Part shown: piece by piece, positions 2,481 through 53,505 of the stretch
Numbering within the stretch: the stretch's first letter is position 1
Layout of the letters: each line of letters starts with the position of its first letter
DNA from: Cytophagales bacterium
Lineage (GTDB): Bacteria > Bacteroidota > Bacteroidia > Cytophagales > Cyclobacteriaceae
DNA: 64,000 nt
Assembly: GCA_017303795.1 (NCBI GenBank)
Contig: JAFLBR010000015.1
Span: 1-64,000, forward strand
Reading direction: 5' to 3'
Made by a program: the position numbers and the translations under genes
Notes under the pieces: model-generated
What the model saw: the letters and a program-made list of their open reading frames with translations, nothing else
Databases searched by the model: none
Told to the model about the DNA's origin: nothing

Positions 2481-3512
2481 TTGGCTATTTCTAAAAACTT
2501 ACCCGTTTCGCGTTTGCCGCTTGCTGGCGCAGTATTACTATGGACGGCCGCGTATGCCGCAGGGTTGCATTATTTTTTTACAATTGTATGGGAGGTAGCC
2601 GTTACCGATTCGGGATTGTTCAATTTGGTTACACTCAGTTCGGTGGTGCTGTTGTATGCGGTTATCGGCTACTTACCTCGTACGGGTATTTTTCAAATTA
2701 CATTGGGCGTGGCAGTGGTCTTTGCATTTCTTTCGCAATGGTTGGCGCAGCAGGCAACTGCGCAGTTAATAACCGATCCAGCCTATCTTGATTTTTTAAA
2801 TCAGTCCATGCCGGTGCGGTGGGCTATGGGCTTTATAATTTTAGTTTCAACAGGGGTAGCGTTTATTTTTTATTCACGCTGGCGCGAAGTTGCCGAGGCA
2901 CAAGCTCGCGAAACAGATACAAGACTGTTAGCCCGCGAAGCAGAATTGCATAAGCTTCAGTTGCAACTGCAACCGCATTTTTTATTTAATAGTCTTAACT
3001 CTATAAATGCGTTGATTCAGCTTAAGCCCGATCAGGCCCGCGAAATGGTGCAGCAGCTTTCAGATTTTTTACGACTTACTATTAGTCGGGCCGATGAACC
3101 GTGGATAACGTTTGCACAGGAATTGGAATATCTTAAAACTTATCTGGCGATAGAAAAAGTTCGGTTTGGCCACCGGTTGGAGATTAACATTCAGGCAGAT
3201 AATGAACTTAACGATTTTAGTATTCCCACGCTGGTGTTGCAACCGTTGTTGGAGAATGCCATCAAGTTTGGATTGTATGGCACTACCGGAAAAATAATTA
3301 TTCAGCTAATAGCCAAACAAACTAACAATGGCATGCAGATAGAAATCACCAATCCGTTCGATGCCGACATGCAACCTTCTACCGGAAGCGGCTTTGGTTT
3401 GAGTGGATTACAACGCAGGTTATACTTATTGTATGCCCGCAACGATTTAATGCAAACCCAACGCACACCCGAAATGTTTACCGTTAACCTGATAATTCCA
3501 CCGCGACCATGA
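2481..3512 (+). CDS. LytS/AlgZ-type sensor histidine kinase
   Basis: 343 residues. Four hydrophobic segments (about 13-33, 46-64, 69-88, 113-131) are followed by a short coiled stretch and a His_kinase domain of the LytS/YehU type. His166 lies in the motif QPHFLFNSL, the N-box is LLENAIKFG (Asn259), and a glycine-rich GSGFGLSGL closes the ATP lid. There is no separate extracellular sensor domain, so the signal is probably sensed in or near the membrane. The start is TTG at 2481: an in-frame stop lies immediately before it and there is no ATG until residue 110. The gene overlaps the following LytTR regulator by 4 bases (ATGA), showing an operon and a cognate pair. Confidence 0.88.
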   Translation: MAISKNLPVSRLPLAGAVLLWTAAYAAGLHYFFTIVWEVAVTDSGLFNLVTLSSVVLLYAVIGYLPRTGIFQITLGVAVVFAFLSQWLAQQATAQLITDPAYLDFLNQSMPVRWAMGFIILVSTGVAFIFYSRWREVAEAQARETDTRLLAREAELHKLQLQLQPHFLFNSLNSINALIQLKPDQAREMVQQLSDFLRLTISRADEPWITFAQELEYLKTYLAIEKVRFGHRLEINIQADNELNDFSIPTLVLQPLLENAIKFGLYGTTGKIIIQLIAKQTNNGMQIEITNPFDADMQPSTGSGFGLSGLQRRLYLLYARNDLMQTQRTPEMFTVNLIIPPRP

Positions 3513-22036: not shown

Positions 22037-23539
22037 ATGGGTATTCGTGCTGCGCTGGCCAAGCCGTTTGCAAAATACATTGCTGGCCAAACTAAAAAAT
22101 GGGCATCCCGGCCAGGGTTTTATCAGACTCAAACGCTTGAGCAACTGGTTTTTGCCGCTCGCCCAACTGCGTTTGGAACTGATCACGGTTTTGATGCGAT
22201 TAAAACTTATGATGATTTCAAAAAACAAGTTCCCGTTCGCGATTACGAAGACTTGAAGCCCTACATTGAACGTGTATTGAAAGGTGAGCCGGATATTTTA
22301 TGGACAGATAAACCCGCATACTTTGCTAAAACATCGGGTACCACTTCGGGTACCAAGTATATTCCTATCTCAAAAGAATCAGCGTCCACACATTTTATAA
22401 GTGCCCGTAATGCCACACTCAGCTATGTGCATGAAACCGGAAACTCCGCCTTTCTGGATGGTAACCTGATTTTCCTTTCGGGAAGTCCGGAGTTGGATGA
22501 AGTTGCCGGTATTAAAACCGGTAGATTATCGGGTATCAGCAACCATTTAGTGCCTGGCTTTTTAAGAACTAATCAAAAGCCCAGCTACACTACCAATTGC
22601 ATTGAAGACTGGGAAGAAAAATTAGAAAAGATTATTGACGAAACGCTTCACGCGAACATGACGCTTATCTCGGGCATACCACCGTGGGCGCAAATGTATT
22701 TCGATCGGATTGTAACACGCACCGGCAAGAAGATTAAAGATGTATTCCCCAATTTTTCGGTGTTTGTATATGGTGGTGTAAACTTTGAACCTTATCGCGC
22801 CAAGCTGTTTGATACCATTGGAAAACAAATTGATTCAATTGAAACCTATCCGGCATCAGAAGGTTTTATTGCTTATCAGGATTCGCAGCGGGCCGAAGGT
22901 ATGCTGATGCTTTTGAATAATGGAATCTTCTATGAGTTCATTCCTGCTGAAGAATATTTTAACGAAAAGCCTACACGACTTTCTATTGAAGAAGTGGAGT
23001 TGGGTAAAAACTATGCGTTGATTATTAACAGCAACGCTGGTTTGTGGGGTTATTCCATTGGCGATATGGTGAAGTTTGTTTCAAAAGATCCATATCGGTT
23101 GGTAGTGTCGGGTAGAATCAAACATTTTATTTCTGCTTTTGGCGAACACGTAATTGGCGAGGAAGTAGAAAAGGCAATGAAATTCACTACTCAGAAATTT
23201 CCGGAGGTAGAATTAGTGGAGTTTACCGTGGCGCCCAATGTAGCTCCTGTCGAAGGTATGCCGCACCATGAATGGTTCATTGAATTTGCCAATCCGCCAA
23301 AAGATTTGGAAGCTTTTGCGTTGGAACTGGATAACCAATTGCGTGGATTGAATGTTTATTACGATGATTTGATTGCGGGTAACATTTTACGTACCCTAAA
23401 AATCACTTCGCTTAAGCGCAATGCTTTTATCGAATACATGAAATCGCAAGGCAAACTGGGCGGACAAAACAAAGTGCCGAGATTAAGTAATGATAGGAAA
23501 CTTGCGGATGAGATTATTAAGTTTAGAATTGATTTGTGA
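22037..23539 (+). CDS. GH3-family acyl-adenylating enzyme
   Basis: 500 residues, full length for the GH3 (auxin-responsive promoter) family. The phosphate-binding loop KTSGTTSGTKYIPIS (about 95-109) and the later YPASEGFIAYQ and GLWGYSIGDMVKF stretches are typical. Plant GH3 proteins adenylate a carboxylic acid and join it to an amino acid; bacterial members are common in Bacteroidota and their substrates are unknown. It has its own promoter. The last codons and the stop lie in the left inverted-repeat arm of the adjoining four-helix-bundle cassette. Confidence 0.88.
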   Translation: MGIRAALAKPFAKYIAGQTKKWASRPGFYQTQTLEQLVFAARPTAFGTDHGFDAIKTYDDFKKQVPVRDYEDLKPYIERVLKGEPDILWTDKPAYFAKTSGTTSGTKYIPISKESASTHFISARNATLSYVHETGNSAFLDGNLIFLSGSPELDEVAGIKTGRLSGISNHLVPGFLRTNQKPSYTTNCIEDWEEKLEKIIDETLHANMTLISGIPPWAQMYFDRIVTRTGKKIKDVFPNFSVFVYGGVNFEPYRAKLFDTIGKQIDSIETYPASEGFIAYQDSQRAEGMLMLLNNGIFYEFIPAEEYFNEKPTRLSIEEVELGKNYALIINSNAGLWGYSIGDMVKFVSKDPYRLVVSGRIKHFISAFGEHVIGEEVEKAMKFTTQKFPEVELVEFTVAPNVAPVEGMPHHEWFIEFANPPKDLEAFALELDNQLRGLNVYYDDLIAGNILRTLKITSLKRNAFIEYMKSQGKLGGQNKVPRLSNDRKLADEIIKFRIDL

Positions 23540-23575
23540 TTAGTGATTTTTGATTGGTGATTTTAGATTTTAAAA
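23527..23575. repeat. Left inverted-repeat arm of four-helix-bundle cassette A
   Basis: Built of short GATTAGTGATTTTT-like units ending in GATTTTAAAA beside the gene. Its reverse complement aligns along most of its length with 23939-23986 (shared TTAAAATC, AATCA and TCACTAATCAC blocks). It includes the last codons of the GH3 gene. Confidence 0.7.
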
Positions 23576-23584
23576 AGAGTATCT

Positions 23585-23935
23585 ATGACAAATAAAGAGC
23601 TGGAAAATAGATTGATCGATTTTTCAGTTGTCGCAATTAGATTGATAAATGAACTTCCAGAAGATCGGGTTGTAAATCACCTTAGTGGGCAACTTTTACG
23701 GTCTACAACTTCACCAGCCTTGAATTATGGAGAAGCCTTAGGTGCGGAGTCAAAAAAAGATTTTGTTCACAAACTTGGTATAGTTTTGAAAGAACTTCGG
23801 GAGTCGTATAATTGCCTGAGAATACTTTCGGGAGCAAATTACCTACAAGCAGATCACGCCATATTGAAGGAATGTAATGAGTTGATTTCGATCTTTGTGA
23901 AATCAATTGAAACAACCAAACGTAATATGGAGTAG
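23585..23935 (+). CDS. Four-helix-bundle protein (23S rRNA IVS type)
   Basis: 116 residues. The four amphipathic helices and conserved LPEDRVVNHLSGQLLRSTTS and LGIVLKELRESYNCLRIL stretches place it in the family of 23S rRNA intervening-sequence proteins and Avd accessory proteins. The fold forms a pentameric, basic barrel in Avd. No rRNA gene and no reverse transcriptase is present here. The gene stands alone in the short space between the GH3 gene and dxr, with inverted-repeat arms on both sides, and reads in the same direction as both. Function unknown; nucleic-acid binding is inferred from the family. Confidence 0.85.
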   Translation: MTNKELENRLIDFSVVAIRLINELPEDRVVNHLSGQLLRSTTSPALNYGEALGAESKKDFVHKLGIVLKELRESYNCLRILSGANYLQADHAILKECNELISIFVKSIETTKRNME

Positions 23936-23938
23936 ATC

Positions 23939-23986
23939 CTTAAAATCAACAATCATAAGTCAATACTCACTAATCACTAATCAAAA
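23939..23986. repeat. Right inverted-repeat arm of four-helix-bundle cassette A
   Basis: Begins TTAAAATC beside the four-helix-bundle gene and ends with repeated CACTAATCA units directly against the TTG start codon of dxr. Complementary to 23527-23575, so a transcript across the cassette could fold into a long imperfect stem. Confidence 0.7.
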
Positions 23987-25147
23987 TTGGGTTTAATTAA
24001 AAAGAAAATCGCTATCCTCGGTTCAACCGGTTCTATCGGCACACAAGCGCTGGAAGTAATTGCCGCACATGCTGATGTGTTTGAAGTTGAAGTACTAACC
24101 GCGCAACGCAATGCTGATTTGTTGATTGAACAAGCAAAGCAGTTTAACCCCAATGCCGTTGTTATTGGTGATGATGCGCACTATGAAAAAGTAAAAGCGG
24201 CCTTGCTACCGTTGGATATAAAAGTCTTTGCTGGTGAAAATGCGCTTGCTTCTGTTGTGCAGATGGATTCCATCGATCTGGTGCTTACTGCGCTGGTAGG
24301 GTATTCCGGACTGAAGCCAACTATTAAAGCCATTGAAGCCGGAAAAAATATTGCCTTGGCAAACAAAGAAACGCTTGTAGTAGCCGGTGAACTGATAACC
24401 GCACTCGCAAAAGCGAAAGGAGTAAACATTTATCCGGTGGATTCTGAACACTCGGCTATTTTTCAATGTCTGGTAGGCGAGTTTCATAACCCAATTGAGA
24501 AAATTATTTTAACTGCATCGGGTGGGCCGTTTCGGGGAAAGAAGAAACACGAATTAATGCAGGTAACAAAAGCGCAGGCCTTGAAGCATCCCAACTGGAC
24601 GATGGGCGCCAAAGTAACCATCGATTCGGCTTCGCTTATGAACAAAGGGCTTGAAGTGATTGAGGCTAAGTGGTTATTCGGGCTAAAGCCAGAGCAGGTG
24701 GAGGTAGTGGTGCATCCACAATCCATTATCCATTCATTGGTTCAGTTTAAAGATGGTTCTATAAAAGCGCAACTGGGCTTGCCCGATATGCGTTTACCCA
24801 TTCAGTTTGCCATGAGCTATCCAAATAGAATTAAGAGCGATTTCCCCCGATTTGATTTTACACAGTATCCGGCCTTCACATTTGAAAAGCCCGATACCGA
24901 AACTTTTCGTAATCTTGCACTTGCTTTCGAGGCGATGGGGCGGGGCGGTAACATGCCTTGCGTGCTGAATGCAGCCAATGAAATAGCCGTGCAGGAATTT
25001 TTACAAGATCGCATCGGCTTTTTGCAGATGTCTGAGCTAGTGGAAAAATGTTTGAATAAAATGGATTATATCGCTAATCCTGCGTTTGAGGATTATGTGA
25101 ACACCGATAAAGAAACCAGAATTAAAGCTAAAGAACTTATTAACTGA
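23987..25147 (+). CDS. dxr: 1-deoxy-D-xylulose 5-phosphate reductoisomerase
   Basis: 386 residues, normal length. The NADPH-binding loop ILGSTGSIGTQAL (about 9-21), the active-site PVDSEHSAIFQCL and the flexible-loop region with ASGGPFRGKK, plus NKGLEVIEAKWLF and VVVHPQSIIHSLVQF, identify Dxr of the MEP isoprenoid pathway. The only reasonable start is TTG 23987, immediately after the right repeat arm of cassette A. The stop overlaps the rseP ATG (TGATG), so the two are one operon. Product isoprenoids feed menaquinone and cell-wall lipid carriers. Confidence 0.96.
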   Translation: MGLIKKKIAILGSTGSIGTQALEVIAAHADVFEVEVLTAQRNADLLIEQAKQFNPNAVVIGDDAHYEKVKAALLPLDIKVFAGENALASVVQMDSIDLVLTALVGYSGLKPTIKAIEAGKNIALANKETLVVAGELITALAKAKGVNIYPVDSEHSAIFQCLVGEFHNPIEKIILTASGGPFRGKKKHELMQVTKAQALKHPNWTMGAKVTIDSASLMNKGLEVIEAKWLFGLKPEQVEVVVHPQSIIHSLVQFKDGSIKAQLGLPDMRLPIQFAMSYPNRIKSDFPRFDFTQYPAFTFEKPDTETFRNLALAFEAMGRGGNMPCVLNAANEIAVQEFLQDRIGFLQMSELVEKCLNKMDYIANPAFEDYVNTDKETRIKAKELIN

Positions 25148-26653: not shown

Positions 26654-27493
26654 ATGTCAAAAAGTAAAACCATACACGTACAGGGAACAGTGATTACAAT
26701 CCTGCAGAATGAATCAAGTGATTTCGTTTCGCTTACTGATATTGCACGTTACAAAGATGTAGAGCGCACTGATACCATTATTCAGAATTGGCTTAGAAAT
26801 AGAAACACAATAGAATTATTGGGTTTTTGGGAACAATTGTACAATCCTGATTTTAACCCCCTCGAATTCGATGGGTTTAGAAAGCAGGCCGGACTGAATA
26901 GTTTTACCCTAGCACCTAAACAATGGATAGAAAAAACAAATGCAAAAGGCATTGTTTCGAAACCAGGCCGATACGGAGGAACTTTTGCCCACAAAGACAT
27001 AGCCTTTGAATTTGCCTCCTGGATTTCAATTGAATTTAAGCTATACATCATCAAAGAATTTCAACGACTGAAAGATGATGAAAACAACCGCCTTAAATTA
27101 GACTGGAACCTTCAGCGCACGCTCGCCAAAGTAAATTACCATATACATACTGATGCCATTAAAGAGAATTTGATTCCCAAAGAATTAACCAAAAGCCAAA
27201 CGGTATTTATTTATGCCAATGAAGCAGACTTACTAAATGTAGCCTTGTTTGGAACCACGGCAAAACAATGGCGTGAGGCAAATCCAAAGGCAGATGGAAA
27301 CATCAGAGATGTTGCCACGCTGGAGCAATTGGTAGTGCTTTCAAACCTGGAGAGTATTAATGCCGTGCTAATCCATCAGGGGTTGCAGCAAACAGAGCGG
27401 CTCATTCAACTGAACAAGATTGCCATCACGCAAATGAAATCGCTTGTAAATCGTTCTGATAGAACTAAAGGAATTAATAGAGGCTCTACTTAA
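26654..27493 (+). CDS. KilA-N domain protein
   Basis: 279 residues. The KilA-N DNA-binding domain covers about 10-135, with the usual SLTDIARYKDVERTDTIIQNWL start, the WLRNRNTIELLGFWEQLYN core, and GGTFAHKDIAFEFASWIS. The C-terminal half is helical and unlike phage antirepressor tails that I recognise. KilA-N genes are mostly from phages and large DNA viruses; chromosomal single copies are common in Bacteroidota with unknown role. It stands alone between two terminator-like hairpins, with no other phage genes near, so it is either a domesticated phage gene or a small accessory regulator. Confidence 0.85.
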   Translation: MSKSKTIHVQGTVITILQNESSDFVSLTDIARYKDVERTDTIIQNWLRNRNTIELLGFWEQLYNPDFNPLEFDGFRKQAGLNSFTLAPKQWIEKTNAKGIVSKPGRYGGTFAHKDIAFEFASWISIEFKLYIIKEFQRLKDDENNRLKLDWNLQRTLAKVNYHIHTDAIKENLIPKELTKSQTVFIYANEADLLNVALFGTTAKQWREANPKADGNIRDVATLEQLVVLSNLESINAVLIHQGLQQTERLIQLNKIAITQMKSLVNRSDRTKGINRGST

Positions 27494-29630: not shown

Positions 29631-32087
29631 ATGTTTAAATCTCTCGCAATAACACCCATGGTTCAGGAAGATTCTGATGAAATGATTCAGTTAATTAATC
29701 CTGAGCAGGAGTCGGACTTAAAACCGGAAGATCTTCCTGAAGAATTATCAATACTTCCAATAAAAAATACCGTGCTGTTTCCCGGTGTAGTTATTCCAAT
29801 TACCGTTACGCGCCAGAAGTCTATTCGTTTAATAAAGAAAGCTTATCAGGGCAACCGCATTATTGGTGTAATCGCTCAGAAAAATAAACAAGCTGAAGAG
29901 CCGGGTATTGAAGATTTATATCGGTTTGGTACCGTTGCCCGCATTATAAAAATGCTGGTGCTGCCCGATGGGAATACAACCATCATCATTCAGGGTAAGA
30001 ACCGGTTTCAGATAAACGAATATGTGCAGGAGGAACCGTTTATGACGGCCCGCATTGATTTGCAAGCCGAACTTTTGCTGGACTTAGAAAGCAAAGAAGT
30101 AAAGGCTTTGGTGCAATCGTTAAAAGATGCCGCCACAAAAATTCTGAAACTCAATCCTGAAATTCCACAAGAGGCACAAGTAGCACTTGATAATATTCAG
30201 AGCACGGGTTTCCTCATTCATTTTCTTTCTTCTAACCTGAATGTGGATGTAGCCGATAAACAGAAAATCCTCGAAACGAATAACATCATTGATCGCGGTA
30301 CGCTTTTGTTGCAATACATGCTGAAGGAAATTCAGATGCTGGAGATCAAGCATGAGATTCAGAAAAAAGTACACACGGATATTGATCAGCAACAGCGCGA
30401 TTATTTCTTGCGCCAGCAAATCAGAGTACTGCAAGACGAATTAGGGTACGATGGCCCCGATAAAGAAATTGAAAAACTACGCAAGCGTGGTGGCGAAAAG
30501 AAATGGCCCAAGGCTGCAGCCGATCATTTCAATAAAGAGTTGGATAAATTGCAACGCATTAATCCACAAGCTGCCGAGTTTCCGGTGGCCATGAATTATG
30601 TTGAGTTTATGCTCGACTTGCCGTGGGATGAGTGCACTACGGATGATTTTGATCTGAAGCGTGCGCGTAAAATTCTGGATAAAGATCACTTTGGTTTAGA
30701 GAAAGTAAAAAACCGGATTCTGGAATACCTGGCTGTGTTAAAGTTGAAGCAAGACATGAAAGGCCCCATACTTTGTTTGTATGGCCCACCTGGTGTAGGT
30801 AAAACTTCGCTGGGTAAATCAATTGCCAAATCATTACAGCGTAATTACATCCGCATGTCATTAGGCGGTGTACACGATGAGGCTGAGATTCGCGGGCATC
30901 GCAAAACCTATGTGGGTGCTATGCCCGGAAAAATTTTGCAGAACATCAAAAAATCAAAATCATCGAATCCGGTTTTTATTTTAGATGAGATTGACAAAGT
31001 ACGTTCCGATTTCAGAGGCGATCCGTCTTCTGCGTTGTTGGAAGTATTAGATCCCGAACAAAACAATGCCTTTGGCGATAACTACCTGGAAGTAGAGTAC
31101 GATTTATCGAAAGTACTTTTTATCGCTACCGCCAATTCGTTAGATACCATTCATCCCGCTTTGCGCGATCGCATGGAGATAATTGAACTTACCGGTTATA
31201 CGGTAGAAGAAAAATTACAGATCGCTATAAAGCATTTGGTGCCCAAGCAACTTGCAGAGCATGGCTTGAAAGCGAAGGACATAAAATTCAGCAAAGAAGC
31301 TTTGTTGAAAGTAATTGAAAGTTACACGCGCGAGTCAGGCGTGCGGAATCTGGAACGTAAGATTGGTTCAGTAGTGCGCAGCATTGCCAAGTCGGTGGCT
31401 ATGGAAGAAGCGTTTGAGAAAGAAATTACTCCGGCCCACGTAATAAAAGTTTTGGGTGCCGAAATATTTGATGAAGAACTTTACCAGGGAAATGAAATTG
31501 CTGGTGTGGTAACGGGTTTAGCGTGGACGCAGGTTGGTGGCGATATTCTTTTTGTCGAATCGAGTTTAAGCAGGGGCAAGGGACAGCTTACTATTTCAGG
31601 ACAATTGGGCGATGTAATGAAAGAATCCGCAGTCGCAGCACTTTCGTATCTTAAATCAAATGCCGAAGCGCTGGGTATCGATCATCGATTGTTTCAGCAG
31701 TACGATTTACATATTCACGTGCCTGCTGGTGCGGTGCCTAAAGACGGGCCTTCAGCCGGTATAACCATGCTTACTTCGCTGGCTTCAATTTTTACCCAAC
31801 GTAAAATTAAAAACAAACTTGCTATGACGGGTGAAATAACCTTGCGTGGTAAAGTATTGCCCGTAGGCGGAATCAAAGAAAAAATTCTGGCAGCCAAACG
31901 CAGTGGCATTAAAGAAATTATCCTGAGCGAAAAGAACAAACGCGATATTGATGAAATTGAGAAGACCTACATTAAAGGACTTACTTTTCATTATGTTACT
32001 TCCGTAGAAGAAGTTTTGAAAATCGCTTTGCTGAAAGATAAAGTAGCGAAGCCGGTAGAGTTTGTGTTGCAAGAAACGAAACAGTAG
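29631..32087 (+). CDS. lon: ATP-dependent protease Lon
   Basis: 818 residues from ATG 29631; GTG 29607 and ATG 29658 are other possible starts, and the first residues are variable in this family. The N-terminal substrate domain begins at about 35 ([19 protein letters not shown]). The AAA+ module has Walker [14 protein letters not shown] and Walker [11 protein letters not shown]. The protease domain carries the Ser-Lys dyad: Ser708 in [11 protein letters not shown] and Lys749 in VGGIKEKIL. It degrades damaged and regulatory cytosolic proteins. The next gene is a four-helix-bundle cassette and then hslU, another ATP-dependent protease component. Confidence 0.96.
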
Positions 32088-32112
32088 CCGGTTACCGGTT
32101 GCAAGTTACCGG
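32088..32112. repeat. Left inverted-repeat arm of four-helix-bundle cassette B
   Basis: Starts directly after the lon stop codon and consists of CCGGTTACCGGTTGCAAG-like units. Its reverse complement matches 32540-32562 at about 18 of 23 bases by hand alignment. Confidence 0.7.
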
Positions 32113-32136
32113 TCTTGAAGGATTAAAAGTTAGAGT

Positions 32137-53154: not shown

Positions 53155-53505
53155 ATGAACCTGAAGAAAGCCATATTTTTAATTGCCATTGTAGCGGTAG
53201 CTCACTTGAGTTATGGCCAGGTGCGCGAGGAAAGTTTTGGCGCTCCAGATCCAATCAAACAGGTACAGGTTTATCCCAATCCGGCTATCGAATTTTTAAG
53301 TCTTAAGTTCGAAGCGCCACAAGCCAAAAAGGTCAAGTTAACTGTTCATAACATTCTGGGTAACACCTTAGAAGTAGAAACAGAAGTTGTGGATGAACAC
53401 GAGATCAAGTTGAAAGTAAAAGAATTGGCAACCGGTTATTATTTTGTATCGGTGCGCGATGAACAAGCCAACTTGCGGGGCACCTATAAGTTTCTGAAAA
53501 GGTAA
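53155..53505 (+). CDS. Small exported protein with T9SS-type sorting domain
   Basis: 116 residues. Signal peptide 1-21 (LSYGQ). Almost all of the mature protein is one domain of the type IX secretion C-terminal family: VQVYPNPAIEFLSLKFE, LTVHNILGNTL and ELATGYYFVSVRDE, ending in basic residues KFLKR. There is no passenger domain, which is unusual. It may be a carrier-free CTD, a periplasmic protein of the same fold, or a remnant. Confidence 0.75.
   Translation: MNLKKAIFLIAIVAVAHLSYGQVREESFGAPDPIKQVQVYPNPAIEFLSLKFEAPQAKKVKLTVHNILGNTLEVETEVVDEHEIKLKVKELATGYYFVSVRDEQANLRGTYKFLKR

Follow-up and report, generated by a model that had tools for sequence, protein, structure and literature searches.

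The window (the whole 64-kb stretch of DNA analyzed) contains, between a GH3 gene and dxr, a gene for a four-helix-bundle protein that is flanked on both sides by arrays of degenerate 7-nt units in inverted orientation. We refer to this arrangement as cassette A, and its features are as follows.

23529..23573, + strand: left arm of cassette A; GATTAGT-like degenerate 7-nt units, GH3 stop codon inside; inverted repeat I1
23585..23935, + strand: four-helix-bundle gene of cassette A; 116 aa; PF05635, TIGR02436
23940..23984, + strand: right arm of cassette A; ACTAATC-like units, ending just before the dxr start codon; inverted repeat I1

Cassette A fills the gap between GH3 and dxr

A preliminary description had proposed that long, inverted complementary arms built of repeated units surround this gene. 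Repeat searching recovered the arms as 45-nt sequences, 366 nt apart, that are 82% complementary, and the unit could be refined to a degenerate heptamer (GATTAGT/ACTAATC-like). Lag-7 arrays extended over positions 23510-23586 on the left (maximum, 29/42 matches) and 23931-23996 on the right (maximum, 28/42 matches). The GH3 stop codon (23537-23539) lies within the left arm, the TTG start codon of dxr (23987) directly follows the right arm, and the interval from stop to start is wholly occupied by the hairpin. When the 150 nt upstream and the 150 nt downstream of each PF05635 gene were compared by local matching, cassette A (locus L004) obtained a complementarity score of 29; the maximum was 15 in 121 control pairs taken elsewhere in the same locus set. 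Folding of the transcript, a check proposed earlier, placed the arms in a predicted closing stem (minimum free energy, -121.2 kcal/mol; z, -4.25), and 0 of 100 shuffled sequences reached so low a value.

The open reading frame (ORF) matched PF05635 (46.5 bits; cutoff, 33.8) and TIGR02436, "four helix bundle protein" (74.5 bits; cutoff, 24), in agreement with its earlier assignment to the family named after 23S rRNA intervening sequences (IVSs). The NCBI model names PF05635-type proteins only "four helix bundle protein," and solved structures of relatives exist (2gsc and 2rld). Its earlier placement outside rRNA also held: the ORF lies between GH3 and dxr, and no Rfam match was found in the 64-kb window. 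Comparison with the orthologue in genome G068 gave a dN of 0.052, a dS of 0.644, and a dN/dS ratio of 0.08; the cassette A protein is under purifying selection. A terminator or attenuator reading was set aside because a constrained gene separates the two arms by 366 nt. We also rejected a known anti-phage defense gene, as no PADLOC model matched the four PF05635 proteins of this genome at an E value of 0.01. A basic protein as a sign of nucleic acid binding was unsupported, since family proteins are not strikingly basic (pI of 6.3 for cassette A and 7.1 for cassette B, described below; median of 7.9 among 151 family proteins).

Elsewhere in the window, a KilA-N domain gene (26654-27493; PF04383, 77.7 bits) lies downstream of the dxr region; this domain is often met in phages. 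Positions 53155-53505 encode a 116-aa protein that consists mostly of a Por secretion-system C-terminal sorting domain (PF18962, 47.6 bits).

Four cassettes in one genome

PF05635 was matched four times in the genome of the window (G000; 24 contigs, 4.87 Mb in total), namely, by cassettes A and B and those at loci L001 and L002. Each is flanked by arrays that have a period of about 7 nt and a unit of their own (gene names at these cassettes come from reading the translations). Cassette B is sited after lon.

32084..32113, + strand: left arm of cassette B; GGTTACC-like units, by eye; direct repeat D2 of L003
32137..32523, + strand: four-helix-bundle gene of cassette B; 128 aa; PF05635 76.4 bits, TIGR02436 84.2 bits
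32537..32563, + strand: right arm of cassette B; GGTAACC-like units, by eye

In G077, an 85% identical orthologue of the cassette B gene occupies the same junction, with GGTTACC-type arms on both sides. The L001 cassette has AGTCCTT-like units and 46-nt arms (87% complementary) in the fadB|fadA gap, and the L002 cassette has GTCGATA-like units and sits between two parts of metH. No stem was found by the repeat finder between the arms of cassette B or L002, which were read by eye, and the complementarity scores of these two cassettes (14 and 13, respectively) were not above the control maximum of 15, which counts against the hairpin-element reading given below. The cassette B stem is weak in the G000 copy. 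At L002:459-1836, the metH-like homocysteine methyltransferase is split into two ORFs with the four-helix-bundle cassette between them; argC|argD and suf are similar operon gaps.

Inverted heptad arrays are a general feature of PF05635 loci

PF05635 is present in 300 of 392 Bacteroidota genomes, often several times per genome, and in 52 of 60 genomes of the family of the window (Cyclobacteriaceae). A cultured relative, Indibacter alkaliphilus, has a cassette of this type (L102). The preliminary description had suggested examining the flanks of other family members. Inverted repeats were found in all three samples examined (62 loci, the best 80 of at least 590 matching stretches, and 28 loci), with gene strand and start assigned by simple rules throughout, and inverted heptad arrays around PF05635 genes are a general architecture.

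For the first sample (L001-L033 and L064-L092, with the mis-parsed L084 kept at its score of 8), the median inverted score was 17, compared with 10 for the same-strand comparison, 10 for cross-paired flanks (372 pairs; 95th percentile, 15; maximum, 29), and 9 for the 121 control pairs from elsewhere in the same loci (maximum, 15). All 121 of those controls were exceeded by 38 of the 62 loci; the other 24 did not exceed the control maximum, which counts against the pattern. Autocorrelation of the flanks was 0.381, 0.350, 0.339, and 0.298 at lags of 7, 14, 21, and 28, respectively, and 0.265 to 0.300 at other lags.

The second sample, made up of 80 named loci (the best 80 of at least 590 matching stretches), had a median score of 18 versus 9 in 144 controls; 65 of these best 80 exceeded the control 95th percentile (13) and 16 exceeded the control maximum (23). 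Same-strand scores for these best 80 had a median of 10.5 and a 95th percentile of 29, a heavy tail that counts against the pattern and implies that some loci also contain same-strand arrays. Seventeen loci among the best 80 come from records labelled as outside Bacteroidota or unclassified (two Ignavibacteria). Their autocorrelation at lags of 7, 14, 21, and 28 was 0.395, 0.367, 0.361, and 0.308, and 14 of the 17 exceeded the control 95th percentile (L129, L133, and L167 did not). Units in records labelled as non-Bacteroidota included TCGGAAC (Geobacter), TTAAGGC (a Clostridia metagenome-assembled genome [MAG]), and GTACTTC (an Omnitrophica MAG). Going by record titles, MAGs included, we take the armed cassettes to be distributed over at least 10 phyla. 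In the third sample (30 loci from a search by phylum, 28 of them usable after L314 and L320 were dropped), the median score was 15 versus 9 in 56 controls (Mann-Whitney P = 1.7e-10) and autocorrelation at the same four lags was 0.357, 0.333, 0.325, and 0.287; 10 of the 28 loci were above the control maximum and 18 were not, the latter counting against the pattern.

The unit sequence varies from cassette to cassette, and no fixed inverted ends occur within the family. Left arms are polarized in composition, with G exceeding C in 77 of 91 stems and falling below it in 9. In 44 of the 91 stems, the left arm closes all three reading frames with stop codons, against about 28 expected from mononucleotide shuffles, with the proviso that such shuffling destroys the causative periodicity. 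At L066, L025, L071, and other loci, the four-helix-bundle frame extends into the right arm, and the protein ends in translated repeat units.

Most cassettes lie in gaps between codirectional genes

Among the 135 cassettes with enough flanking sequence (of 141 parsed, with L084 left out), 116 had both neighbors in the same direction as the cassette; in the others, only the downstream neighbor (11), only the upstream neighbor (3), or neither (4) was codirectional, or no ORF was found (1). A stem score of at least 16 and codirectional neighbors were combined in 76 of these cassettes; the start of the left arm was no more than 10 nt from the upstream stop codon in 51 of the 76, and the end of the right arm was equally close to the assumed start in 34. 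Several junctions recurred in the 62-locus sample: fadA|acyl-CoA dehydrogenase (17 loci), fadB|fadA (16), argC|argD (6), upstream of lpd (4), the suf operon (3), and metH (2), the gene names again being read from translations. An Rfam scan of 40 PF05635 loci placed none of them inside rRNA.

This placement bears on a reading at the RNA level, in which the arms would pair in the polycistronic mRNA, RNase III would cut the stem, and the cassette would be released so that the neighbors are expressed separately. Such processing is possible but on balance rather unlikely as the principal explanation. The predicted fold of cassette A that closes on its arms (z, -4.25) and the codirectional, intercistronic placement of 116/135 cassettes are consistent with it, and RNase III excision is described for the Coxiella rRNA IVS in the available portion of PMC4990558. 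The mismatches in the stems speak against it: in 91 stems (L084 left out), 112 were of the sense G-U type, 156 of the antisense type, and 470 of other types. As near-equal numbers of sense and antisense types are expected from arm composition and no sense excess was seen, there is no sign that sense-RNA pairing is the feature being kept; templated arm-to-arm correction at the DNA level would be an alternative. RNA-level release is compatible with the explanation preferred below, of which it would form the expression side.

The same junction occurs in different states in relatives

The preliminary description had called for a search for cassette-free sites, and such sites are present at the GH3-dxr junction in congeners. 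We found dxr in 33 of 39 genomes (own genome included) and examined 30 loci, in 20 of which GH3 was within reach. Among these 20, three junctions (own genome, G068, and G077) held an intact four-helix-bundle gene with arms and two a decayed one (L040, and L055 with AATGCTG-like arms by eye). Other cargo consisted of nucleotidyltransferase/HepT-like pairs at four junctions, some with broken frames, family 2 glycosyltransferases at four more, and one DUF433/DUF5615 pair. The remaining six had no cargo and a gap of 11 to 87 nt; three of the six are congeners. Cargo was identified by Pfam for one representative per class and for the L050 nucleotidyltransferase, and by resemblance for the others. 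The congeners' junctions with unrelated cargo are L036, L037, L039, L045, L046, L047, L048, L050, and L051. The GH3-dxr junction behaves like an insertion hotspot. At L043 (G061; approximately 2650-2920, minus strand), where GH3 is out of reach and which is hence outside the count of 20, a nucleotidyltransferase-like fragment adjoins a four-helix-bundle gene fragment and the heptad array of a right arm, as though two kinds of cargo had come together at a single junction. Neither of the two adverse outcomes named in the preliminary description, a uniform junction without complementarity and other family flanks without inverted repeats, occurred.

The comparison of the fad junctions covered 27 of the 30 genomes from the genus (own genome included), with "hairpin" and "short gap" distinguished by eye. 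At fadB|fadA, 16 genomes have the gene with its arms, 5 have a heptad hairpin that lacks the gene, and 6 have a short gap (23 to 55 nt); for fadA|acyl-CoA dehydrogenase in the same genomes, the numbers were 11, 9, and 7 (short gap of 5 to 89 nt). After lon, a gene-less heptad hairpin is found in G068, cassette B in G000, and the 85% identical orthologue with like arms in G077. No target-site duplication could be defined, because cassette arms run into the neighboring stop and start codons at the GH3-dxr and fad junctions.

Arm units tend to follow the protein

At fadB|fadA, the arms of a cassette paired with each other (median score, 18; 13 loci) better than with arms from other species at the same junction (median, 9). 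The corresponding medians at fadA|acyl-CoA dehydrogenase were 14 and 9 (10 loci), with L208, L210, and L222 failing; in these three, since the reading frame continues across the right arm, the sequence compared was a piece of the downstream gene. Left out of this test, as too short or wrongly parsed, were 3 of the 16 loci at the first junction and 1 of the 11 at the second. Protein groups at one junction, 20 to 35% identical between the two main groups, have different arm flavors.

We also compared locus pairs that share no flanking-gene family (L084 left out). Arm similarity had a median of 25 at a protein identity of 70% or more (10 pairs), 14 at 60 to 70% (35 pairs), 12 at 50 to 60% (303 pairs), and 10 below 50%; several of the top pairs with "different flanks" are different junctions of one fad operon, which counts against this trend. 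L130 and L138 have no flanking-gene family in common, and their homology takes in the gene together with arm stretches of 48 nt and 36 nt and goes no further. In G083, a protein resembling that of cassette B (47%) lies at another site with B-like arms by eye. From these comparisons, the arm unit tends to follow the protein subfamily. Heptad number can differ between close relatives: L073 (G083) and L085 (G072), whose cassette genes are 88% identical, differ in this respect.

Hairpins might alternatively be kept by the host between cistrons, as mRNA punctuation or stabilizers, with the four-helix-bundle gene as a resident or guest, mostly vertical descent, and fast turnover of the arms. Gene-less hairpins in operon gaps, recurrence of the same junctions across the family, and purifying selection on the gene would all fit, and yet we consider this unlikely: short gaps exist at the same fad junctions in 6/27 and 7/27 genomes, unrelated protein subfamilies and flavors occupy one junction, and L130 and L138 share gene and arms without a common flanking-gene family.

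Gene-less arrays of two genomes tend to resemble resident cassettes

In 601 kb of G000, 13 lag-7 clusters were found at a threshold of 26 of 42 matches, 4 of them being arms that belong to cassette A or L001; at other lags, the number of clusters was 0 to 4. When 10 gene-less arrays of G000 were matched against 61 cassettes, a cassette of the same genome (L001 or B) was the top match of 5 and among the top two of 8, with an expected chance of about 4/61 that an own cassette ranks first. Cassettes A and L002 had no match of this rank. For G083, three arrays best matched L085 of its close relative G072, with its own L073 second, two best matched its own L086, and four matched neither L073/L085 nor L086. 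In these two genomes, gene-less arrays thus show a tendency, as judged from their units, to resemble a resident cassette. Hairpins at the fad junctions had a median score of 16.5 against their own cassette and 11 against others; the own cassette was the best of 26 for only 3 of 14, which counts against the resemblance, and L209, L220, and L228 clearly have another flavor than their own cassette.

Self-complementarity exceeded the best of 40 shuffles in 17 of 23 gene-less arrays (one place counted twice). At a threshold of 28 matches, lag-7 arrays numbered 9 per 601 kb in G000 (3 of them cassette arms) and 5 per 400 kb in G083; the only two PF05635-free genomes compared had 0 (G012) and 1 (G030). 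G047 has seven PF05635 genes and no lag-7 array at this threshold in 400 kb, which counts against the association and, in this genome, speaks against the gene-less hairpin as an obligatory companion of a PF05635 gene. A long tandem array of CAATACT-like heptamers (G000:C8:78420-78671, in L199) reaches 42/42 lag-7 matches; the nearest PF05635 gene is not adjoining and lies about 2.5 kb away.

Simple-sequence slippage could build heptad arrays in noncoding gaps, the gene being there by coincidence. Heptad number does vary between the close relatives G083 and G072 (L073 and L085), and the accessible part of PMC4679880 deals with heptanucleotide repeats and polymerase slippage. We regard this explanation as highly improbable given the excess of inverted over same-strand scores (medians of 17 and 10), the left-arm polarity (77 versus 9 of 91 stems), the scarcity of arrays elsewhere (the 13 clusters per 601 kb, 4 of them arms of two cassettes), and the link between flavor and protein.

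A transposase acting in trans, for example of the Y1/RAYT type, would make the four-helix-bundle gene a passenger of mobilized heptad hairpins. G000 has five Y1_Tnp matches, four of them over the cutoff, and RAYT-mobilized REPINs are a known analogue. Against this, no heptad array lies near the five Y1_Tnp genes, where one T-rich window appeared at the lowest threshold, and flavor tracks the four-helix-bundle protein, so that we hold mobilization of this kind to be quite doubtful. A RAYT origin of the hairpins was rejected as unsupported, heptad arrays being absent beside the Y1_Tnp genes of G000.

A probable hairpin element carrying its gene in the loop

We lean, with some reserve, toward reading cassette A as a copy of a widespread hairpin element made of inverted, degenerate 7-nt arrays with a PF05635 gene in the loop. 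The best reading by analogy is that the cassette would work like an ORF-bearing rRNA IVS but be housed in operon gaps and accompanied by gene-less satellites. Gene and arms would travel and persist together as a unit. The protein may recognize hairpins of its own flavor and promote their copying or retention, and gene-less hairpins would then be satellites or relics. Complementarity of the arms would be kept by selection, by arm-to-arm templated correction, or by both, while units would drift via gain and loss of heptads; expression of the cassette probably rides on the host operon. The IVS-like interpretation of the preliminary description is thereby retained as far as the protein family, the arms, the cassette-free sites, and the flanks of other family members are concerned, whereas the stems gave no excess of sense G-U mismatches (112 versus 156) in its favor.

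More tentatively, and with more doubt than conviction, PF05635 genes may define a large, unrecognized class of mobile elements, "heptad hairpins," with lineage-specific flavors and gene-less satellites, of which rRNA IVSs would be the members residing in rRNA. Under this same tentative proposal, the arms would vary in sequence and be constant in their 7-nt rhythm, G-rich left polarity, and self-complementarity; if true, recognition of ends by rhythm and pairing instead of sequence would be a new principle. How arms remain complementary and heptadic despite sequence turnover is a mechanistic puzzle. If many PF05635 genes are the core of hairpin elements, a very common orphan family is placed in a context, and ideas on how rRNA IVSs arose and spread become testable outside rRNA.

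Comparison with known systems

REPINs are mobilized by RAYTs and have ends of fixed sequence. The cassettes resemble the REPIN/RAYT system in combining a driver-like gene with inverted-repeat flanks and with gene-less hairpins elsewhere, whose sharing of flavor with a resident cassette is mixed (an own cassette first or second for 8 of 10 arrays in G000, but best for only 3 of 14 hairpins at the fad junctions); they differ in carrying no Y1 transposase, in that no heptads lie near the Y1_Tnp genes of G000, and in having arms with a rhythm but no fixed sequence. Inverted-repeat transposons and MITEs differ from the cassettes, whose ends have no fixed sequence within the family. Avd, a component considered here in connection with diversity-generating retroelements (DGRs), is described as a homologue of PF05635 in the available text of PMC10053308, and the L001 protein gave a weak match to the Avd model (24.8 bits; cutoff, 80); a DGR was rejected, as G000 gave no reverse transcriptase match (RVT_1, PF00078). 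Intergenic direct repeats of the heptamer TAACTGA are reported from Beggiatoaceae, cyanobacteria, and five Bacteroidetes (MacGregor 2015, PMC4679880, as far as the accessible part goes). They are likewise intergenic 7-nt arrays, but are direct repeats of a single fixed unit, and the text of that paper contains neither "S23" nor "four helix bundle."

The accessible parts of PMC10910872, PMC11637426, and PMC5787105 merely name the protein. We recognized no account of heptad arms around four-helix-bundle genes outside rRNA in the open-access literature, the Coxiella repeats being nearest. The heptad-armed cassette is real and general and, in the open-access literature searched, undescribed as such, and by resemblance it may be regarded as a variant of the IVS. 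It is not classed as an rRNA IVS because all 40 loci scanned lie outside rRNA and because excision from mRNA is putative here; the cassettes sit between protein genes (GH3 and dxr for cassette A), and their arm sequence varies from copy to copy. The likeness to the ORF-bearing 23S rRNA IVS (S23) lies in a PF05635-type ORF held within a stem of complementary ends, at about 430 to 450 nt. In Coxiella, as given in the available excerpts of PMC4990558, the 23S IVS has a 28-bp terminal stem and is excised by RNase III, and the likeness extends to tandem heptamers, for there GACAGAT units in strain-variable number precede the S23 ORF.
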